Below are positions 8,294 to 58,818 of a stretch of 64,000 nucleotides of DNA, in pieces. The number at the start of each line of letters is the position of its first letter. Within the stretch, counting starts at the first letter, position 1. Both the position numbers and the translations under genes were made by a program. The stretch is from Asticcacaulis aquaticus. GTDB taxonomy: Bacteria > Pseudomonadota > Alphaproteobacteria > Caulobacterales > Caulobacteraceae. A model generated the notes under the pieces. It saw nothing but the letters and a program-made list of their open reading frames with translations. It was not told the origin of the DNA and ran no database searches. The stretch is from contig NZ_JAQQKX010000007.1 in NCBI RefSeq assembly GCF_028550415.1, forward strand, positions 62,001 through 126,000, given 5' to 3'.

Positions 8294-8703
8294 CGCGAAT
8301 ATTCCTTATAAAATATGGTTGAAATTCCCCTATTCCGTAACCTGCGGCATAGCTTCTGATTATGAAAGAAATTTTATGAGACGAACGCAAAAAAATGCGT
8401 CATGGTGCCGCGTCGTTTCAAATGAGCCTATTTTTCACTGGGAACGACACCACTACTTTTACAGCCTGTATAAGCCGCCCTTAATACTCCCCTACTCTGT
8501 GGGGGAGGTGGATTTTTGAGCGTCAGCTCAAAAAGACGGTGGGGGGCCTTGCGAAGGATCAACCCGCACCGCGCGTTGAACGTCCCAAAGGCCCCCACCA
8601 CCGCATCTAGCGCTTCGCGCGTCGTGCGGTCCCCCTCCCCGGTACACCGGGGAGGTATGAAAGGTGTCTCAACAGTTCCTTCATCACCAATTCCGGACAG
8701 ACC
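8294..8703. other. Intergenic region between the antiporter and M13 peptidase genes
   Basis: 410 bp between divergent genes. It contains presumptive promoters for both and, at 8486-8657, a pair of inverted palindromic repeats listed separately. No RNA or short gene was recognised. Confidence 0.5.
8486..8657. repeat. Paired palindromic intergenic elements, inverted orientation, no gene inside
   Basis: Left element 8486-8547: CTCCCC...GGGGGAGGTGGA, then the hairpin TTTTTGAGC...GCTCAAAAA, then GACGGTGGGGGG. Right element 8591-8657 is the mirror type: CCCCCACCACCGC, a GC-rich middle, CCCCCTCCCC and the terminal palindrome CTCCCCGGTACACCGGGGAG. The 43-bp spacer has no coding sequence. Each element has an outer palindrome, a second inner hairpin and a GGTGGGGG inner end. 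Confidence 0.75.
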
Positions 8704-10845: not shown

Positions 10846-10857
10846 GATATCCATTAT

Positions 10858-11022
10858 ACCTCCCTGCCTTTGGCGGGGAGGGGGACCGCACGAACAGACG
10901 AAGTCGGTGAGATGTGGTGGTGGGGTGTCTTTCTCGGGCACAATATATCCGTAGAAAGAACACCCCACCCGTCATCGCTCCGCGATGCCACCCTCCCCGC
11001 ACTGAAGTGCAGGGAGGTATAA
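10858..11022. repeat. Paired inverted palindromic intergenic elements, no gene inside
   Basis: Left element 10858-10926: ACCTCCC..GGGGAGGGGGACCGCACG ending GTGGTGGTGGGG. Right element 10961-11022 is inverted: CACCCCACCC, the hairpin ATCGCTCCGCGAT, CACCCTCCCC, then the palindrome GCACTGAAGTGC and AGGGAGGTAT. The spacer is about 34 bp. Same architecture as the pair at 58648-58818 and the pair that brackets the DUF559 gene at 30771-31142. Confidence 0.8.
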
Positions 11023-25449: not shown

Positions 25450-25478
25450 ATACCTCCCCATCAAAGATGGGGAGGTAT
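25450..25478. repeat. Solitary terminal palindrome of the CCTCCCC repeat family
   Basis: ATACCTCCCCATC AAA GATGGGGAGGTAT, a 29-bp palindrome identical to the outer end of the element at 31163-31229. The inner hairpin and GGTGGTGGGG end are missing, so this looks like a solo remnant. Confidence 0.75.
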
Positions 25479-30121: not shown

Positions 30122-30681
30122 TCAGAGCACTTCGCTGTAGATCCAGACCTCTCGCGTCTTTTCATAAGGCGGATCAAACGTGTCATCACGCCAATAGGTA
30201 CGGTAGCCGCGTTCTTCAAACTCTTCCGTTACACGCAGACCATAGGATTCAAAAGGCTCCGTGAGGGGGGCAAGGGTATCCACAGGTCATCAGGATTATG
30301 CCGCTCGGCAAACCTCTGCCAGTAGCTTTCATCGAAAAAGATATGCACGCCGCTATCGAACAGTTTCGGCAAGGTCAGGATAGCGGTGACCCGCGTGCCT
30401 TGTGCCGTGTCAGGCTTTTGGCTCCGCATATTGACGGCAGCCTTTAGAACCAGATCGATATAACGCCGCTGCGTATGCCGCGACGAATGCGGCAAATTGA
30501 CCAGACTCCCGGTCACAGGTGTCTTCCAGCTATCGAAACCGGCTCCGCGCGGGTGAGTATCCGGCCATTTGTCCGCAAGGGTATCCGACCAGAGCTTCAG
30601 GTCCCGCAGCATGGTTTTCGTGCGACTGCTGTGCCGGTAGGACCGGCGTCTAGCGAACATATCTACATAGTGCTTATTCAT
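30122..30681 (-). pseudogene. Frameshifted copy of the DUF3916-like gene
   Basis: This is a close relative of the intact gene at 32435-32995, and the two align over the full length. The frame is good from MNKHYVDMF to about residue 143 (LWIPLPPSRSLL). One T is then missing: GGATTCAAAAGG near 30246, against GGATTTCAAAAGG in the intact copy. The rest continues in another frame to the same C-terminus (TREVWIYSEVL). Adjacent to the groEL terminator, so this site seems to be the ancestral one although its gene is broken. An element of the CCTCCCC repeat family begins 17 bp upstream of its start. Confidence 0.85.
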
Positions 30682-30698
30682 AGTCATTTCATATCTCA

Positions 30699-30768
30699 TA
30701 CCTCCCCAACTTGTTGGGGAGGGGGACCGCACGAACGAACGCAGTGAGTGAGATGTGGTGGTGGGGGT
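30699..30768 (+). repeat. Left inverted element bounding the DUF559 gene
   Basis: TACCTCCCCAACTTGTTGGG is the outer palindrome. GACCGCACG and an inner hairpin-like segment (GAACGCAGTGAG) follow, then GTGGTGGTGGGGG at the inner end. The DUF559 stop codon follows 2 bp later. It is the mirror image of the element at 31163-31229. Confidence 0.85.
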
Positions 30769-30770
30769 TC

Positions 30771-31142
30771 TTACTTACTTGCCCGCAGCGCCGCTCGCTC
30801 TGACGCCAGCAGAATCACACCATCCGCAGCTGCATCCGGATCGCGATAAACGTCAGCCGCCGGGAGACGGTAAATTTCAAGTCCTTGGGCTCTGAGCCAT
30901 CTTTCGCGGATGGCATCTTTTTCGGCTTGCGCATTTTCGCTATGAACCGCGCCATCTACCTCGATGACCAATCGCGCTTTGAAGCAATAGAAGTCGAGAA
31001 TATAGGGCCCCATCGCGTGTTGGCGTTTAAAGGTCAAACCCTGTGTACGTGATTTCAATCGCTCCCAAAGCAGCCATTCAGGCTGTGTCAGAGCTTTACG
31101 CATTTGACGCGCCAAAGCTGTTTTGCGCGTAACCTCTATCAT
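30771..31142 (-). CDS. DUF559 endonuclease-fold protein (Vsr-like), bounded by inverted repeats
   Basis: 123 residues from the ATG at 31140-31142, with GGGGAG upstream. DUF559 belongs to the PD-(D/E)XK/Vsr-like nuclease fold. The core here is MGPYILDFYCFKARLVIEVD followed by GAVH, with acidic residues placed as expected for metal binding. The N-terminal helix has QPEWLLWERLKSR. Gene and flanking elements form a compact unit (30699-31229) inserted between the frameshifted DUF3916-like gene and an SRPBCC gene remnant. A second, damaged copy lies at 46913-47271 between similar repeats. DNA cleavage is inferred from fold; the target is unknown. Confidence 0.85.
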   Translation of the reverse strand: MIEVTRKTALARQMRKALTQPEWLLWERLKSRTQGLTFKRQHAMGPYILDFYCFKARLVIEVDGAVHSENAQAEKDAIRERWLRAQGLEIYRLPAADVYRDPDAAADGVILLASERAALRASK

Positions 31143-31162
31143 TGCGCTCCCCAAGCAAGAAA

Positions 31163-31229
31163 CCCCACCACCGCATCTAGCGCTGCGCGCGTCGTGCGGT
31201 CCCCCTCCCCATCAAAGATGGGGAGGTAT
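31163..31229 (-). repeat. Right inverted element bounding the DUF559 gene
   Basis: Begins CCCCACCACCGCATC, then GCGCTGCGCGCGTCGTGCGG, CCCCCTCCCC and the outer palindrome CTCCCCATCAAAGATGGGGAG. Inverse orientation to 30699-30768, so the outer palindromes face away from the gene. Confidence 0.85.
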
Positions 31230-32434: not shown

Positions 32435-32995
32435 TCAGAGCACTTCGCTGTAAATCCAGACCTCTCGCGTCTTTTCGTAAGGCGGATCGAACGTGTCATC
32501 GCGCCAATAGGTACGGTAGCCGCGCGCCTCAAACCCTTCCGGTACACGCAGACCGTAGGATTTCAAAAGGCTGCGCGAGGGGGGCAAGGGTATCCACAGG
32601 TCATCCTGATGGTGCCGCTCGGCAAACCTCTGCCAGTAGCTTTCGTCGAAAAAAATATGCACGCCGCTATCGAACAGTTTCGGCAAGGTCAGGATAGCGG
32701 CGACCCGCGCGCCCTGTGCCGTGTCAGGCTTGTGGTTCCGCATATTGACGGCAGCCCTCAGGACCAGTTCGATATAGCGCCGCTGCGTATGCCGTGACGA
32801 ATGCGGCAAATTGACCAGACTCCCGGCCACAGGCGTCTTCCAGCTATCGAAACCGGCTCCGCGAGGGTGAGTATCCGGCCATTTGTCCGCAAGGGTATCC
32901 GACCAGAGTTTCAGGTCCCGCAGCATGGTTTTTGTGCGCCACCGCCGGTAACGGGATAGATCGCCCGCAAATATTTCCATGTAACGCTTGGCCAC
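32435..32995 (-). CDS. DUF3916-like protein of unknown function, third gene of a toxin-antitoxin operon
   Basis: 186 residues starting at a GTG 2 bases after the toxin stop, so probably translationally coupled. The start aligns with that of the pseudogene copy at 30122-30681. The protein is soluble, basic in the N-terminus, with WSDTLADKWPDTHPRGAGF, VNLPHSSRHTQRRYI, HIFFDESYWQRF and YEKTREVWIY. The layout resembles DUF3916 from memory, not from a search. Function unknown. Position suggests co-expression with the toxin-antitoxin pair. Confidence 0.75.
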   Translation of the reverse strand: MAKRYMEIFAGDLSRYRRWRTKTMLRDLKLWSDTLADKWPDTHPRGAGFDSWKTPVAGSLVNLPHSSRHTQRRYIELVLRAAVNMRNHKPDTAQGARVAAILTLPKLFDSGVHIFFDESYWQRFAERHHQDDLWIPLPPSRSLLKSYGLRVPEGFEARGYRTYWRDDTFDPPYEKTREVWIYSEVL

Positions 32996-32997
32996 TC

Positions 32998-33273
32998 CTA
33001 AAACCCTTTCATCCGCGCTGCATGTTTGAGGCGCAGGATTTCAATGCGGAGAGGCCGTGTTTTCACGTGATAAACAGCGATATAGTTGTGGTGGATTACC
33101 AACTCTCTTGTACCGGTTATCCGTCCGGTACGGCCTCTCCGCGGATAATTCCGTAACGCCTCGATCGAGGCTCTCAACTCCTGCCCAAAGCCGGTAGCGC
33201 GATCAGGATTGTCCTGAGCGATATACCGAACAAGTCCCAGAAGATCATCAACGGCTTGAGGCCGCCAGTCCAC
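32998..33273 (-). CDS. RelE/ParE-family toxin
   Basis: 91 residues (MDWRPQAVDDLLGLVRYIAQ...). It has the family pattern: an N-terminal helical hairpin DLLGLVRYIAQDNPDRA, then NYPRRGRTGRI and TRELVIHHNYIAVYHV, and a final IEILRLKHAAR. ParE members inhibit gyrase and RelE members cleave ribosome-bound mRNA; sequence suggests the ParE side because the late Arg/His set typical of RelE catalysis is not evident. The antitoxin gene ends 9 bp upstream. The DUF3916-like gene follows at once. Confidence 0.9.
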   Translation of the reverse strand: MDWRPQAVDDLLGLVRYIAQDNPDRATGFGQELRASIEALRNYPRRGRTGRITGTRELVIHHNYIAVYHVKTRPLRIEILRLKHAARMKGF

Positions 33274-33282
33274 GACTAGTCG

Positions 33283-33564
33283 TCAGGCACCGCATTTCAC
33301 GCCTGCGGCATGACGTGCGATTTCGGTATCCATCATAGCCATAACCTCGTCATGAGGAATACCGGGACGCGGGTCGTCCAGCGCGTCCTGAACCTGCTGA
33401 CGGAACCATGCATCGTAATCCGAGGAGTCTGATTTTAGCTCCACATAGTCGCGCATCACATCACTGAGAACATCGGCCACAGAACGACCTTCGGCTTCGG
33501 CGACAGCACTGAATACCTCTTTCAGGTCTTCGTCGATCTGGAAGGTGAATTCGGCCTTACCCAT
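33283..33564 (-). CDS. Ribbon-helix-helix-type antitoxin of the ParD/RelB class
   Basis: 93 residues. The N-terminal strand-helix-helix (EFTFQIDEDLKEVFSAVAEA, then EGRSVADVLSDVMRDYVE) fits a DNA-binding ribbon-helix-helix. The acidic C-terminal half (AWFRQQVQDALDDPRPGIPH, then DEVMAMM) is of the kind that wraps the toxin. First gene of the operon, so it should autorepress the promoter in 33565-33687. Antitoxin-toxin order and spacing are standard. Confidence 0.88.
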   Translation of the reverse strand: MGKAEFTFQIDEDLKEVFSAVAEAEGRSVADVLSDVMRDYVELKSDSSDYDAWFRQQVQDALDDPRPGIPHDEVMAMMDTEIARHAAGVKCGA

Positions 33565-46730: not shown

Positions 46731-46852
46731 TAAGCCTTCCGCGTCACCGGGTCAAGCCGGTATTTTTATACGGTACGCAAACCTAGGCCCAACGATGTTA
46801 AAAGGCGATATAGAACCGGTTGGCGGCGGGAGGCAAGGCTAATCCCCACTTT

Positions 46853-46914
46853 ACGCCCCCGGCGTGCCGGGGGAGGTGGATGCGAAACCTTGGGTTCGCA
46901 GACGGAGGGGGGCT
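46853..46914 (+). repeat. Left palindromic element at the second DUF559 locus
   Basis: ACGCCCCCGGCGTGCCGGGG is the outer palindrome, followed by GAGGTGGA, the inner hairpin TGCGAAACC..GGTTCGCA and GACGGAGGGGGGC. The stop codon of the DUF559 frame (46913-46915) overlaps its inner end. Confidence 0.8.
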
Positions 46915-47271
46915 AACGCAGGTCTTTTAACCGCTCCGCCGCCAACCGGTACACGCCGTCGGCCACCTCATCGGCATTACGATAGATATCCGACGCATTG
47001 ATACGATAGGTCTCGATGCCTTGAGATTTCAGCCATTCGTCGCGGCGGACATCCTTTTCAGCAACATTTTCGAGACCATGCTGCTGACCATCGACCTCGA
47101 CCGCAAGTTTGGCCTTAAAGCAATACATATCCAGCACATACGGACCCACCGCATATTGCCGTCGAAATACCGGACCACCGTCCTGACGCACCTTGAGCCG
47201 GTCCCACAGCATGAACTCCGGCGGTGTCAGTTTTCGACGGAGCGTTCTGGCAGAGTGTATTTCGGCGTCAT
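46913..47271 (-). pseudogene. DUF559 endonuclease-fold gene with an N-terminal frameshift
   Basis: From the ATG at 47269-47271 the first codons read MTPKYTL. The homologous ARTLRRKLTPPEFMLWDRLK then continues in another frame. Restoring one G after CTG (CTGCCAGA to CTGGCCAGA near 47251) joins them and aligns with TRKTALARQMRKALTQPEW of the intact gene at 30771-31142. The core VGPYVLDMYCFKAKLAVEVD is intact. An internal ATG at 47212 could still give a 99-residue protein. Flanked by palindromic elements whose outer ends face away, as at the first locus. Confidence 0.75.
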
Positions 47272-47280
47272 CTACCCGAG

Positions 47281-47339
47281 CCCCCCCTCCGTCTTTTTAG
47301 CTTCGCTAAAAATCCACCTCCCCCGGCACGCCGGGGGAG
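47281..47339 (-). repeat. Right palindromic element at the second DUF559 locus
   Basis: CCCCCCCTCCGTC, inner hairpin TTTTTAGCTTCGCTAAAAA, TCCACCTCC and outer palindrome CCCCCGGCACGCCGGGGG. Inverse orientation to 46853-46914. Confidence 0.8.
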
Positions 47340-47359
47340 TAGCAACTTCCCCTAACTTT

Positions 47360-47419
47360 ACGCCCCCAGTTTACTGGGGGAGGTGGCGTTGAACGCAGTG
47401 AAACGACGGAGGGGGGCTA
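47360..47419 (+). repeat. Third palindromic element downstream of ppc
   Basis: ACGCCCCCAGTTTACTGGGG, GAGGTGGCG, inner hairpin-like GTTGAACGCAGTGAAAC and GACGGAGGGGGGCTAA. Same orientation as 46853-46914, 36 bp from the ppc stop. It is a tandem neighbour of the second DUF559 unit. Confidence 0.8.
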
Positions 47420-58186: not shown

Positions 58187-58660
58187 TTACGATTGTGAGC
58201 CGTTATCGTCGTTCAGGAGACGATCAAGCCGCGCCTGCTCCTCAGGGGTCAATTCGGAAACGACTGTTTTTTCAGGCTTCTTATTCATCAGGGCAAAAAC
58301 CAGACCGCCTGTTAGCAAAATCACCAGCGGCAGGCCCCACAGCAGCGCCGTCCCCGGCGCAAAACGGGGCCGGAAAAGGACATAATCGCCGTAGCGGGCG
58401 CGCATCGTGTCGCGGATCTGCGTATCGGTCAGGCCGTCGGCTATATGCAAGCGGATATCGCGGCGCATGTCGGCGGCGATATCGGCAGAGGAATCGGCAA
58501 TGGATTCGTTCTGACAGACGACGCAGCGCACTTCGGAATAGAGATCGCGGGCGCGCTGATCCTGACGCGGATCGGGCATGGCTTCGCCCGGCAGCACGGC
58601 AGCGGCGATTTGCGTGAAGGCGAAGAGCGTGACGAGGAGTAATCTTACATACCTCCCCAA
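58187..58660 (-). CDS. ccmH: Cytochrome c maturation protein CcmH, start codon uncertain
   Basis: 157 residues in this model. The redox motif VRCVVCQNESIADSSADIA, with the CxxC that reduces apocytochrome haem-binding cysteines, is intact. A signal peptide (LLLVTLFAFTQIAAAVLPGEA) and a C-terminal membrane anchor (LLWGLPLVILLTGGLVFALM) are present. The natural start is not clear: the frame runs back into a palindromic repeat and only a TTG at 58658-58660, inside the repeat, begins upstream of the signal. The nearby ATG (GGAGGTATGTAAG) is out of frame. Repeats therefore seem to have replaced the ribosome site. Last gene of ccmI-E-F-H. Confidence 0.85.
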   Translation of the reverse strand: MGRYVRLLLVTLFAFTQIAAAVLPGEAMPDPRQDQRARDLYSEVRCVVCQNESIADSSADIAADMRRDIRLHIADGLTDTQIRDTMRARYGDYVLFRPRFAPGTALLWGLPLVILLTGGLVFALMNKKPEKTVVSELTPEEQARLDRLLNDDNGSQS

Positions 58661-58818
58661 CTTGTTGGGGAGGGGGACCGCACGAAGGCCGAAGGCCTGA
58701 GATGTGGTGGTGGGGGCTCTTGCTTTCTTAGGACAGTGGTCGTTGAAACGCCGCAAGATACCCCACCACCATTCGCTTCGCGAATGGTCCCCCTCCCCAT
58801 CAGAGATGGGGAGGTATG
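58648..58818. repeat. Paired inverted palindromic elements between ccmF and ccmH
   Basis: Left element: TACCTCCCCAACTTGTTGGG palindrome, GACCGCACG, hairpin AGGCCGAAGGCCT, GTGGTGGTGGGGG. Right element is inverted: CCCCACCACC, hairpin ATTCGCTTCGCGAAT, CCCCCTCCCC and palindrome CTCCCCATCAGAGATGGGGAG. The 46-bp spacer has no coding sequence. Same as the pair bounding the DUF559 gene at 30699-31229. Confidence 0.85.

Follow-up and report, generated by a model that had tools for sequence, protein, structure and literature searches.

A DUF559 nuclease gene between inverted palindromic elements in Asticcacaulis aquaticus: a putative small mobile or formerly mobile unit with no transposase between its ends

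Why should a single small nuclease gene lie tightly enclosed between two inverted copies of one palindromic repeat? The question is raised by a locus of Asticcacaulis aquaticus, found in a window of 64,000 nucleotides (the whole stretch of DNA that was analysed). A preliminary description of the locus, made from sequence alone, inferred that the nuclease may drive, or may once have driven, the spread of the repeats and that gene and repeats together would form a unit resembling an insertion sequence (IS) without a transposase. Here we examine the unit, its relatives, the controls that bear on this inference, and the rival explanations.

The window unit and its relatives in the genome

The open reading frame (ORF) at 30771-31142 (minus strand, ATG start) encodes a DUF559 protein according to its profile match (PF04480, 93.4 bits against a cut-off of 20.6), and the two elements flanking it, at 30699-30767 and 31163-31229, are inverted copies with arms that are 96% and 88% complementary (Table 1). 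From the outside towards the gene, the order within an element is a CCTCCCC-loop-GGGGAGG outer palindrome, GGGACCGC, an inner hairpin region, and GGTGGTGGGG; in the left element, the G-rich, mirror-type inner end at 30757-30767 adjoins the gene. The claim of a gene between inverse elements of one family thus held, as did, for both elements, that of a CTCCCC palindrome on the outside and GGTGGTGGGG at the inner end. The claim of an inner hairpin in each element held only in part: this hairpin differs from copy to copy and is imperfect in the left element of the window unit. The view of the elements as separate from the gene required refinement. In 10 gene-less pairs of the same genome, the conserved element end extends into a TTCTTGCTT-like stretch, and this conserved inner extension contains the gene's stop codon (30771-30773), so that gene and left element overlap.

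In the surroundings of the unit, two DUF3916 genes (30229-30690 and 32435-32995) with very similar 3' parts bracket a hydrolase gene together with the DUF559 unit, as might result from a duplication of ~2.3 kb. The second DUF3916 gene is followed, at 32998-33564, by a ParE-like gene with a small partner.

Three DUF559 genes were found in the genome surveyed (4.0 Mb, 38 contigs), every one with palindromic elements on both sides and each with another family: A at 30.7-31.2 kb, B at 46.85-47.34 kb, and C in contig 15. A strict family A pattern (27-31 bases) has 75 copies in the genome and none when read backwards, and a looser pattern has 105. Among 100 listed sites of the looser pattern, 13 plus/minus pairs have a spacing of 108-124 bases, and one has a spacing of 480 bases; this last pair is the DUF559 unit, and the unit is therefore the common inverted pair of ~168 bp with a gene in its spacer. 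Across the loci studied, units of this form, a DUF559 nuclease gene between two elements pointing towards it, measure ~430-590 bp.

The elements are numerous, and those observed are mostly intergenic. The spacers of gene-less pairs have the same inner extension as the unit, and their centres look, by eye, unrelated to it; whether gene-less pairs arose as internal deletions of the gene-bearing unit was considered and is left open as a possibility. The palindrome at 25453-25478 may be a scar-like remnant, with the look of interior loss. The second DUF559 gene of the window may be damaged or frameshifted at its 5' end, because there is no usual in-frame start upstream of 47212 and the domain match extends to 47257. 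Apart from DUF559, neither window unit has an ORF of ≥80 aa entirely within its ends.

Table 1. Coordinates of DUF559 units, gene-less pairs, and related features in the window
Feature	Position	Strand	Remarks
Left element, family A	30699-30770	+	Outer palindrome 30699-30722, inner hairpin region, inner end 30757-30767
DUF559 (PF04480) Vsr/homing-endonuclease-like nuclease gene, 123 aa	30771-31142	-	
Right element, family A, inverted	31163-31229	-	Outer palindrome 31204-31229
Left family B (CGTC-like) element, second DUF559 unit	46850-46913	+	
Second DUF559 gene	46913-47257	-	Profile match 46946-47257; stop codon overlaps element end
Right family B element, inverted	47280-47339	-	
Third family B element	47357-47417	+	Probably corresponds to the lone element that takes the place of the unit in relative G029
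Gene-less inverted pair, family A elements, 168 bp	58650-58817	.	Family C pair at the matching place in G029
Gene-less inverted pair, family A type, right half degenerate	10856-11022	.	
Gene-less hybrid inverted pair, two different families	8486-8658	.	No element at the matching place in G089
Lone outer palindrome	25453-25478	.	Full family A pair there in G029

Flanking of DUF559 genes and pairing with element families

DUF559 genes occur in 76 of 99 Caulobacteraceae genomes sampled, with up to 11 per genome. By inverted alignment of 220-bp flanks (score of ≥20), 23 of 33 DUF559 loci were flanked, whereas none of 370 control window pairs taken from these loci reached that score; three of the 33 are cut by contig ends, and their flanks are misplaced. 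When full-length loci were compared in either orientation, the values were 27/30 for DUF559, 0/28 for ParE genes of the same 99-genome set, and 0/4 for Y1 loci (2 of 30 ParE and 1 of 5 Y1 loci were excluded for insufficient length). In Asticcacaulis, 113 DUF559 matches were found in 23 of the 25 genomes searched. Six of these, all partial matches, were left out, and of the 107 loci studied, 72 scored ≥20 in inverted and 80 in either orientation; many loci below this score have elements of other families. Outside Asticcacaulis (Caulobacter, Brevundimonas, Phenylobacterium, Sphingomonads, Roseiarcus, and others), 41 of 59 loci were flanked, 40 of them in inverted orientation, with a control value of 0/214; this set was obtained from 80 loci by removing 20 from Asticcacaulis and 1 with a short flank. 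A Pseudomonadota sample gave 16/30 flanked loci (13 inverted) in the alignment test, and one control window pair scored 32.5.

A strict motif, defined as a full mirror match (see below) within 250 bp and oriented towards the gene, was present on both flanks of 107 of 207 DUF559 loci, on one flank of 77, and on neither flank of 23. The controls were 0/28 for ParE, 0/4 for Y1, and, among 262 shifted pseudo-genes, none with the motif on both flanks and 6 with it on one. Loci at contig ends were left out of this test (27/30, 29/30, and 44/60 loci were used in the three sets from outside the genus), and a few loci may be counted twice. With the mirror motif, 28 of 29 loci of the Pseudomonadota sample are positive on at least one side. 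Within Asticcacaulis, 18 of 107 loci have the strict motif on neither side, and family C flanks often stand in direct as well as inverted order. As a separate observation, a DUF559 locus of a metagenome-assembled genome labelled Planctomycetota (L297) has the same kind of flanking elements; transfer or misbinning is possible.

The expectation that DUF559 genes would be flanked more often than other genes was thus met by a wide margin. Chance flanking by intergenic palindromes was rejected on the strength of the ParE, shifted, and random-window controls. A related explanation is insertion bias, in which palindromes gather in gene-free stretches where DUF559 genes happen to sit. The number of the elements and the mostly intergenic position of those observed speak for it, but it can be almost entirely ruled out, given the ParE (0/28) and shifted pseudo-gene (0/262 on both sides) controls and the same-family rule and tree signal described below.

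The elements obey a mirror rule. When the stretch towards the gene was compared with the outer purine arm in 323 flanks, the mirror copy was the better match in 220, the two directions were equal in 95, and the direct copy was better in 8. The test covers 199 of 226 loci, those with an outer pyrimidine/purine palindrome, and in the mirror match an A position may be A or T; up to 19 of the 226 are second copies of Asticcacaulis loci, and the p value is nominal because flanks are not independent. Arm and inner end also co-vary, with full mirror matches in 65 of 78 cases for GGGGAGG/GGAGGGG, 4 of 4 for GGGAAGG/GGAAGGG, 11 of 15 for GGGAGAAGG/GGAAGAGGG, and 4 of 4 for GAGAGAGGG/GGGAGAGAG. Intrastrand triplexes are built in this way, with a mirror copy of the purine arm beside a hairpin; the sequence signature is shown, and the formation of a triplex is inferred from it. 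Inner hairpins stay paired as their sequence changes: 94% of positions are paired in family D (31% after shuffling), where mean identity between copies is 0.47, with corresponding values of 77% (shuffled, 31%) in family B and 61% (shuffled, 30%) in family A.

Gene lineages and element families are paired. Seven element families were defined, and 100 of the 107 Asticcacaulis loci could be labelled on at least one side. Both sides were labelled at 70 loci, and the family was the same on both in 66, with 19.2 expected by chance. On the DUF559 tree (96 rows), the family label needs 15 changes, compared with a mean of 50.2 and a lowest value of 44 in 200 shuffles; without the deep C clade, the values are 14 and 37.5. 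Near-copies contribute to this signal. The C genes, plus one unlabelled row, form one supported clade, and the D genes do likewise. In genomes holding at least two genes, 69 genes had an own flank score of ≥20, and for 63 of these (13.8 by chance) the best match among all DUF559 genes of the genome was the gene's own downstream element. Protein similarity predicts element similarity (rho of 0.28 for 256 within-genome pairs; none of 500 within-genome permutations was as high). Both the flanking and the cognate pairing are computed results.

Copy numbers follow the genes in some families. Family D has 12, 20, 7, 13, and 12 copies (gene-adjacent ones included) in five genomes with a D-type gene; in 20 genomes without one, there are no copies in 18 and 2 and 6 copies in the other two. 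The five genomes may be one clade and are therefore not five independent events. For family B, gene number and copy number are correlated (rho of 0.56, p = 0.0036; relatedness not controlled). For family A, no correlation of gene number with A copies was found (rho of 0.16, p = 0.45), and one genome (G080) has 42 family A copies and no DUF559 match. At family D loci (L175, L176, L171, L169, L137, and L219), the G-rich inner end (GAGGGGGTAAA ATG) stands at the expected ribosome-binding site of the DUF559 gene.

A search for Y1/RAYT (PF01797) gave no match in this genome; in the family sample, 13 of 99 genomes had matches and 86 had none. The inferred IS-like unit without a transposase is supported. 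RAYT-driven spread within this genome was rejected, as PF01797 was not found and none of four Y1 loci elsewhere was flanked. It could still be argued that gene and elements are shared passengers, moved in trans by an unseen enzyme with the nuclease as mere cargo. In favor of this view, the nuclease fold is without known strand-transfer chemistry and the ends of the unit are IS-like. Against it stand the absence of Y1/RAYT matches from 86 of 99 genomes, this one included (other transposase types were outside the scope of the search), and the pairing of gene lineages with element families. We consider it scarcely tenable.

Dispersed copies, empty sites, and the nuclease

In an all-against-all comparison, many locus pairs are similar over element, gene, and element only. 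Within single genomes, similar units lie at unrelated places: L187/L195 (76% identity, 499 bp), L169/L171 (74%, 502 bp), L194/L222 (79%, 485 bp), and L153/L184 (69%, 471 bp). No flank similarity beyond the unit was found in these four dispersed pairs. Homology begins at CTTCGCCCTCCCC at both ends in L187/L195, at AGAACTCCCCC or one base earlier in L169/L171, and within the palindrome in L194/L222, and the ends are sharp at the elements in the first two; these unit boundaries are shown by computation. Inspection of junctions by eye revealed no target-site duplication. The dispersed pairs are just 69-79% identical, and their movement is therefore not recent.

Two further arrangements were noted. 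In L164/L168 and L137/L219, the unit seems, from junctions read by eye, to be reversed at one place between two species. DUF559 units also stand side by side, up to three in ~1.8 kb (L139/L198/L202 in G104, L130/L165 in G052, and L131/L145 in G108).

Independent insertion of gene and repeats would have spoken against the inference of the preliminary description, but a comparison of occupied and empty sites at the places examined shows them together. The place downstream of groEL was examined in 11 of 25 genomes, and gene and elements are jointly present in 5 and jointly absent in 6. In the six genomes without the gene there, no pair occurs in the ~3.5 kb scanned; stray motifs lie >1.3 kb away in two, namely one family B element at a distance of 2 kb in the first and an inner-end motif in the second. 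At the second window gene, a relative (G029, with groEL 97% alike) has a single element versus the unit plus a third element here. The same relative has a family B pair directly after an apparent stop codon, where this genome has none. Gene-less pairs are thus gained or lost among relatives, e.g., this family B pair and the window pair at 8.5 kb. Joint presence or absence is shown for the places examined.

These data bear on another rival, homing into pairs, according to which the pairs spread by other means and a DUF559 homing nuclease, cutting gene-less pairs, invaded their spacers. Two observations favor it: the gene fills the spacer of an element pair whose inner ends are those also found in gene-less pairs, and the nearest characterized fold is that of the homing endonuclease I-Bth0305I. 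Several others do not: none of the six genomes lacking the gene at the groEL place has a pair in the scanned ~3.5 kb, the relative has a single element rather than a pair at the second gene, the family is the same at both ends in 66 of 70 loci, and dispersed units are homologous to, or nearly to, the element ends. Homing into pairs is therefore unlikely, and movement of the whole unit remains the preferred reading.

The structure of the nuclease was modelled from an alignment of 50 sequences (pLDDT of 86.7), replacing a weak single-sequence model (pLDDT of 61.5). Solved structures matched at a Foldseek E value of ≤0.001 were 3hrl (1.4e-5), a putative endonuclease-like protein of Neisseria gonorrhoeae (NGO0050) that is also the best sequence match, and two I-Bth0305I chains (1.3e-4 and 3.9e-4). 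Matches to PvuRts1I (3.9e-3) and Vsr (0.02) were weaker, and several mitoribosome proteins lay in between. The homing-endonuclease fold (3r3p; E value of 1.3e-4, TM scores of 0.58/0.71) belongs to what we take to be the EDxHD class of homing endonucleases. Residues E22, D50, E61, D63, and H67 are invariant or nearly so in the alignment of 50, and all five are present in 100 of 107 proteins of the genus; their conservation is shown, and a catalytic role is presumed. PD-(D/E)XK-type hydrolases are not known to have strand-transfer activity.

An inner stop is present in 5 of 107 Asticcacaulis DUF559 genes, and dN/dS is 0.02-0.30 in all 12 of 14 pairs that allowed its computation, with dS saturated in some. 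Several units are inherited in place under strong purifying selection, itself a computed result, and some units may therefore serve a host role. In Caulobacter crescentus, VsrA, a protein with a DUF559 domain, is required for the SOS response when ScmA, a methylase acting on cytosine, is missing (PMC12907096), and at least one DUF559 member thus seems to act on cellular DNA.

A further rival is built on such a role: the nuclease would be a domesticated repair or defence enzyme, and the elements, spread otherwise, would be kept as regulatory hairpins or sinks. The VsrA requirement for the SOS response without ScmA (PMC12907096), the strong purifying selection, and the capacity of the G-rich inner end of family D to act as a ribosome-binding site are in its favor. 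It leaves unexplained, however, a lineage-specific family on both sides of the gene, the abundance of families B and D in genomes with the matching gene, and the recurrence of the unit in unrelated surroundings, bounded at or close to the outer ends of its elements. We regard domestication as a very improbable account of the whole, and the reading of the locus as a mobile or formerly mobile unit is retained below.

Related systems, proposed mechanism, and significance

The RAYT/REPIN systems (REPtron, TnpA-REP) of Gammaproteobacteria combine enzyme lineages with their own repeat families. RAYTs are HUH Y1 transposases, and their REPs are GTAG tagged (PMC3733652). The DUF559 system shares with them a single-gene enzyme between inverse palindromic repeats, gene-less inverted pairs in many copies, and lineage-specific repeats; it differs in having a Vsr/homing-endonuclease-like nuclease and an outer palindrome with a mirror third strand, and no GTAG tag was seen by eye at the element ends of families A to D. 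The CGTC REPs (Di Nocera 2013) occur mostly in Alphaproteobacteria and mostly as head-to-head pairs, apparently without a dedicated transposase (PMC3733652). Family B resembles them in its order CCGTC-hairpin-CCACC, with CGTC at the inner ends and a head-to-head arrangement, although no direct sequence comparison was made; DUF559 elements add the outer CTCCCC palindrome and purine third strand, and families A, D, and F are without the CGTC tag.

The G/C-rich triplex motif of Holder 2015 (TM/TM-ECO; CCCTCNCCC-GGGNGAGGG-GGGNGAGGG) was described from >260 genomes. Its E. coli copies are intergenic and linked to genome instability, no transposase or integrase remnants surround them, and the triplex was reported in vitro, without in vivo support (PMC4666352). 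Family C fits the order of this motif, often with a longer second loop; DUF559 elements differ in that they flank and co-occur with DUF559, and in many of them another hairpin precedes the third strand. With Vsr-like nucleases (I-Bth0305I, PvuRts1I, Vsr, and NGO0050), the DUF559 protein shares the fold, conserved acidic residues, and histidine, but the window genes are bounded by repeats, and no intron or intein was seen around them. Insertion sequences and MITEs are likewise comparable in their gene-bearing unit with inverted ends, gene-less short forms, and occurrence at unrelated places with sharp ends (as in L187/L195 and L169/L171); they differ from the present unit, in which there is no transposase between the ends, the end motifs are of triplex type, and no target-site duplication was seen. 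The system is thus neither a RAYT nor a usual IS, and probably not a known homing setting; it behaves like a pair of REP and enzyme. No link between DUF559 and palindromic repeats was found in the open-access literature searched (titles and abstract openings, without preprints and most subscription papers).

Co-occurrence was examined in 299 Pseudomonadota genomes with a triplex pattern modelled on the Holder 2015 motif, a longer second loop being allowed. The pattern is present in 80 of the 299. At least five motifs occur in 49 of 80 genomes with a strong DUF559 match versus 10 of 219 without, i.e., in 29/49 versus 3/37 within the organism's own class and in 20/31 versus 7/182 in other classes. 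Within 14 taxonomic families, 27 such genomes were observed versus 13.7 expected (z = 6.6). The association of motif and gene across genomes is a computed result, with the qualifications that GC content was not controlled, gene-adjacent copies were included, and 28 weak DUF559 matches (E value above the chosen limit of 1e-10) were scored as negative. No searched triplex pattern was found in 19 of the 80 DUF559-positive genomes; Holder's motif does not fit all element families. Among the 10 motif-rich genomes without a strong DUF559 match, one has 130 motifs; such genomes may be relics of lost genes or may be counter-examples. Five genomes (G249, G269, G164, G307, and G142) have 38-130 triplex motifs and no strong DUF559 match.

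We read the locus as a small unit, mobile now or in the past, whose ends are inverted copies of one triplex-type palindrome family, and the gene-less inverted pair scattered in the genome would be its non-autonomous form. We propose the following sequence of events. (i) The nuclease would recognize its cognate end when this is single-stranded or extruded, i.e., as the outer hairpin with its mirror third strand. (ii) It would then cut or nick at that end. (iii) Host repair or replication would copy the unit, or the gene-less pair, into a new intergenic place, by analogy with the use of repair by homing endonucleases. It is likely (probability of roughly 0.68) that the nuclease targets its own ends and that pair or unit is copied in the course of repair or replication. 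Triplex formation, end recognition, the cutting step, and copying by repair are all inferred, and the proposal that the nuclease drives the spread of the elements, as made in the preliminary description, likewise remains inferred rather than shown. The mirror (triplex) rule, the pairing of one lineage with one family, and the spread beyond Caulobacterales had not been part of that description.

Several observations weigh against this reading. No transposition or cleavage has been observed, no target duplication was found, and the dispersed copies are old. Family A shows no correlation with gene number, some genomes have motifs and no gene, and some units are inherited in place. The nuclease has no known strand-transfer activity, the alignment test in Pseudomonadota gave only 16/30, family C can stand in direct order, and 18 of 107 loci lack the strict motif.

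A bolder reading would make these units a new class of mobile element, in which a hydrolytic Vsr/homing-endonuclease-like nuclease replaces the transposase; the intrastrand-triplex ends would be a lineage-specific code of purine arm and mirrored third strand; and DUF559 proteins would be the so far missing agents behind the spread of CGTC-type REPs as well as of the G/C-rich triplex repeats that are widespread in Proteobacteria. Taken jointly, these three propositions could as readily prove wrong as right.

One gene family makes two published questions testable, those of the CGTC REPs (Di Nocera 2013) and of the triplex repeat (Holder 2015), and the data tie such repeats to DUF559 by lineage-family pairing and by the joint occurrence of motif and gene across 299 genomes. 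VsrA, a DUF559 protein of Caulobacter crescentus able to damage host DNA, is a ready laboratory entry. If the nuclease does move the repeats, bacteria would possess a class of mobile elements that relies on a restriction-like nuclease and on ends of non-B DNA, and DUF559, a family without known function, would acquire a role.
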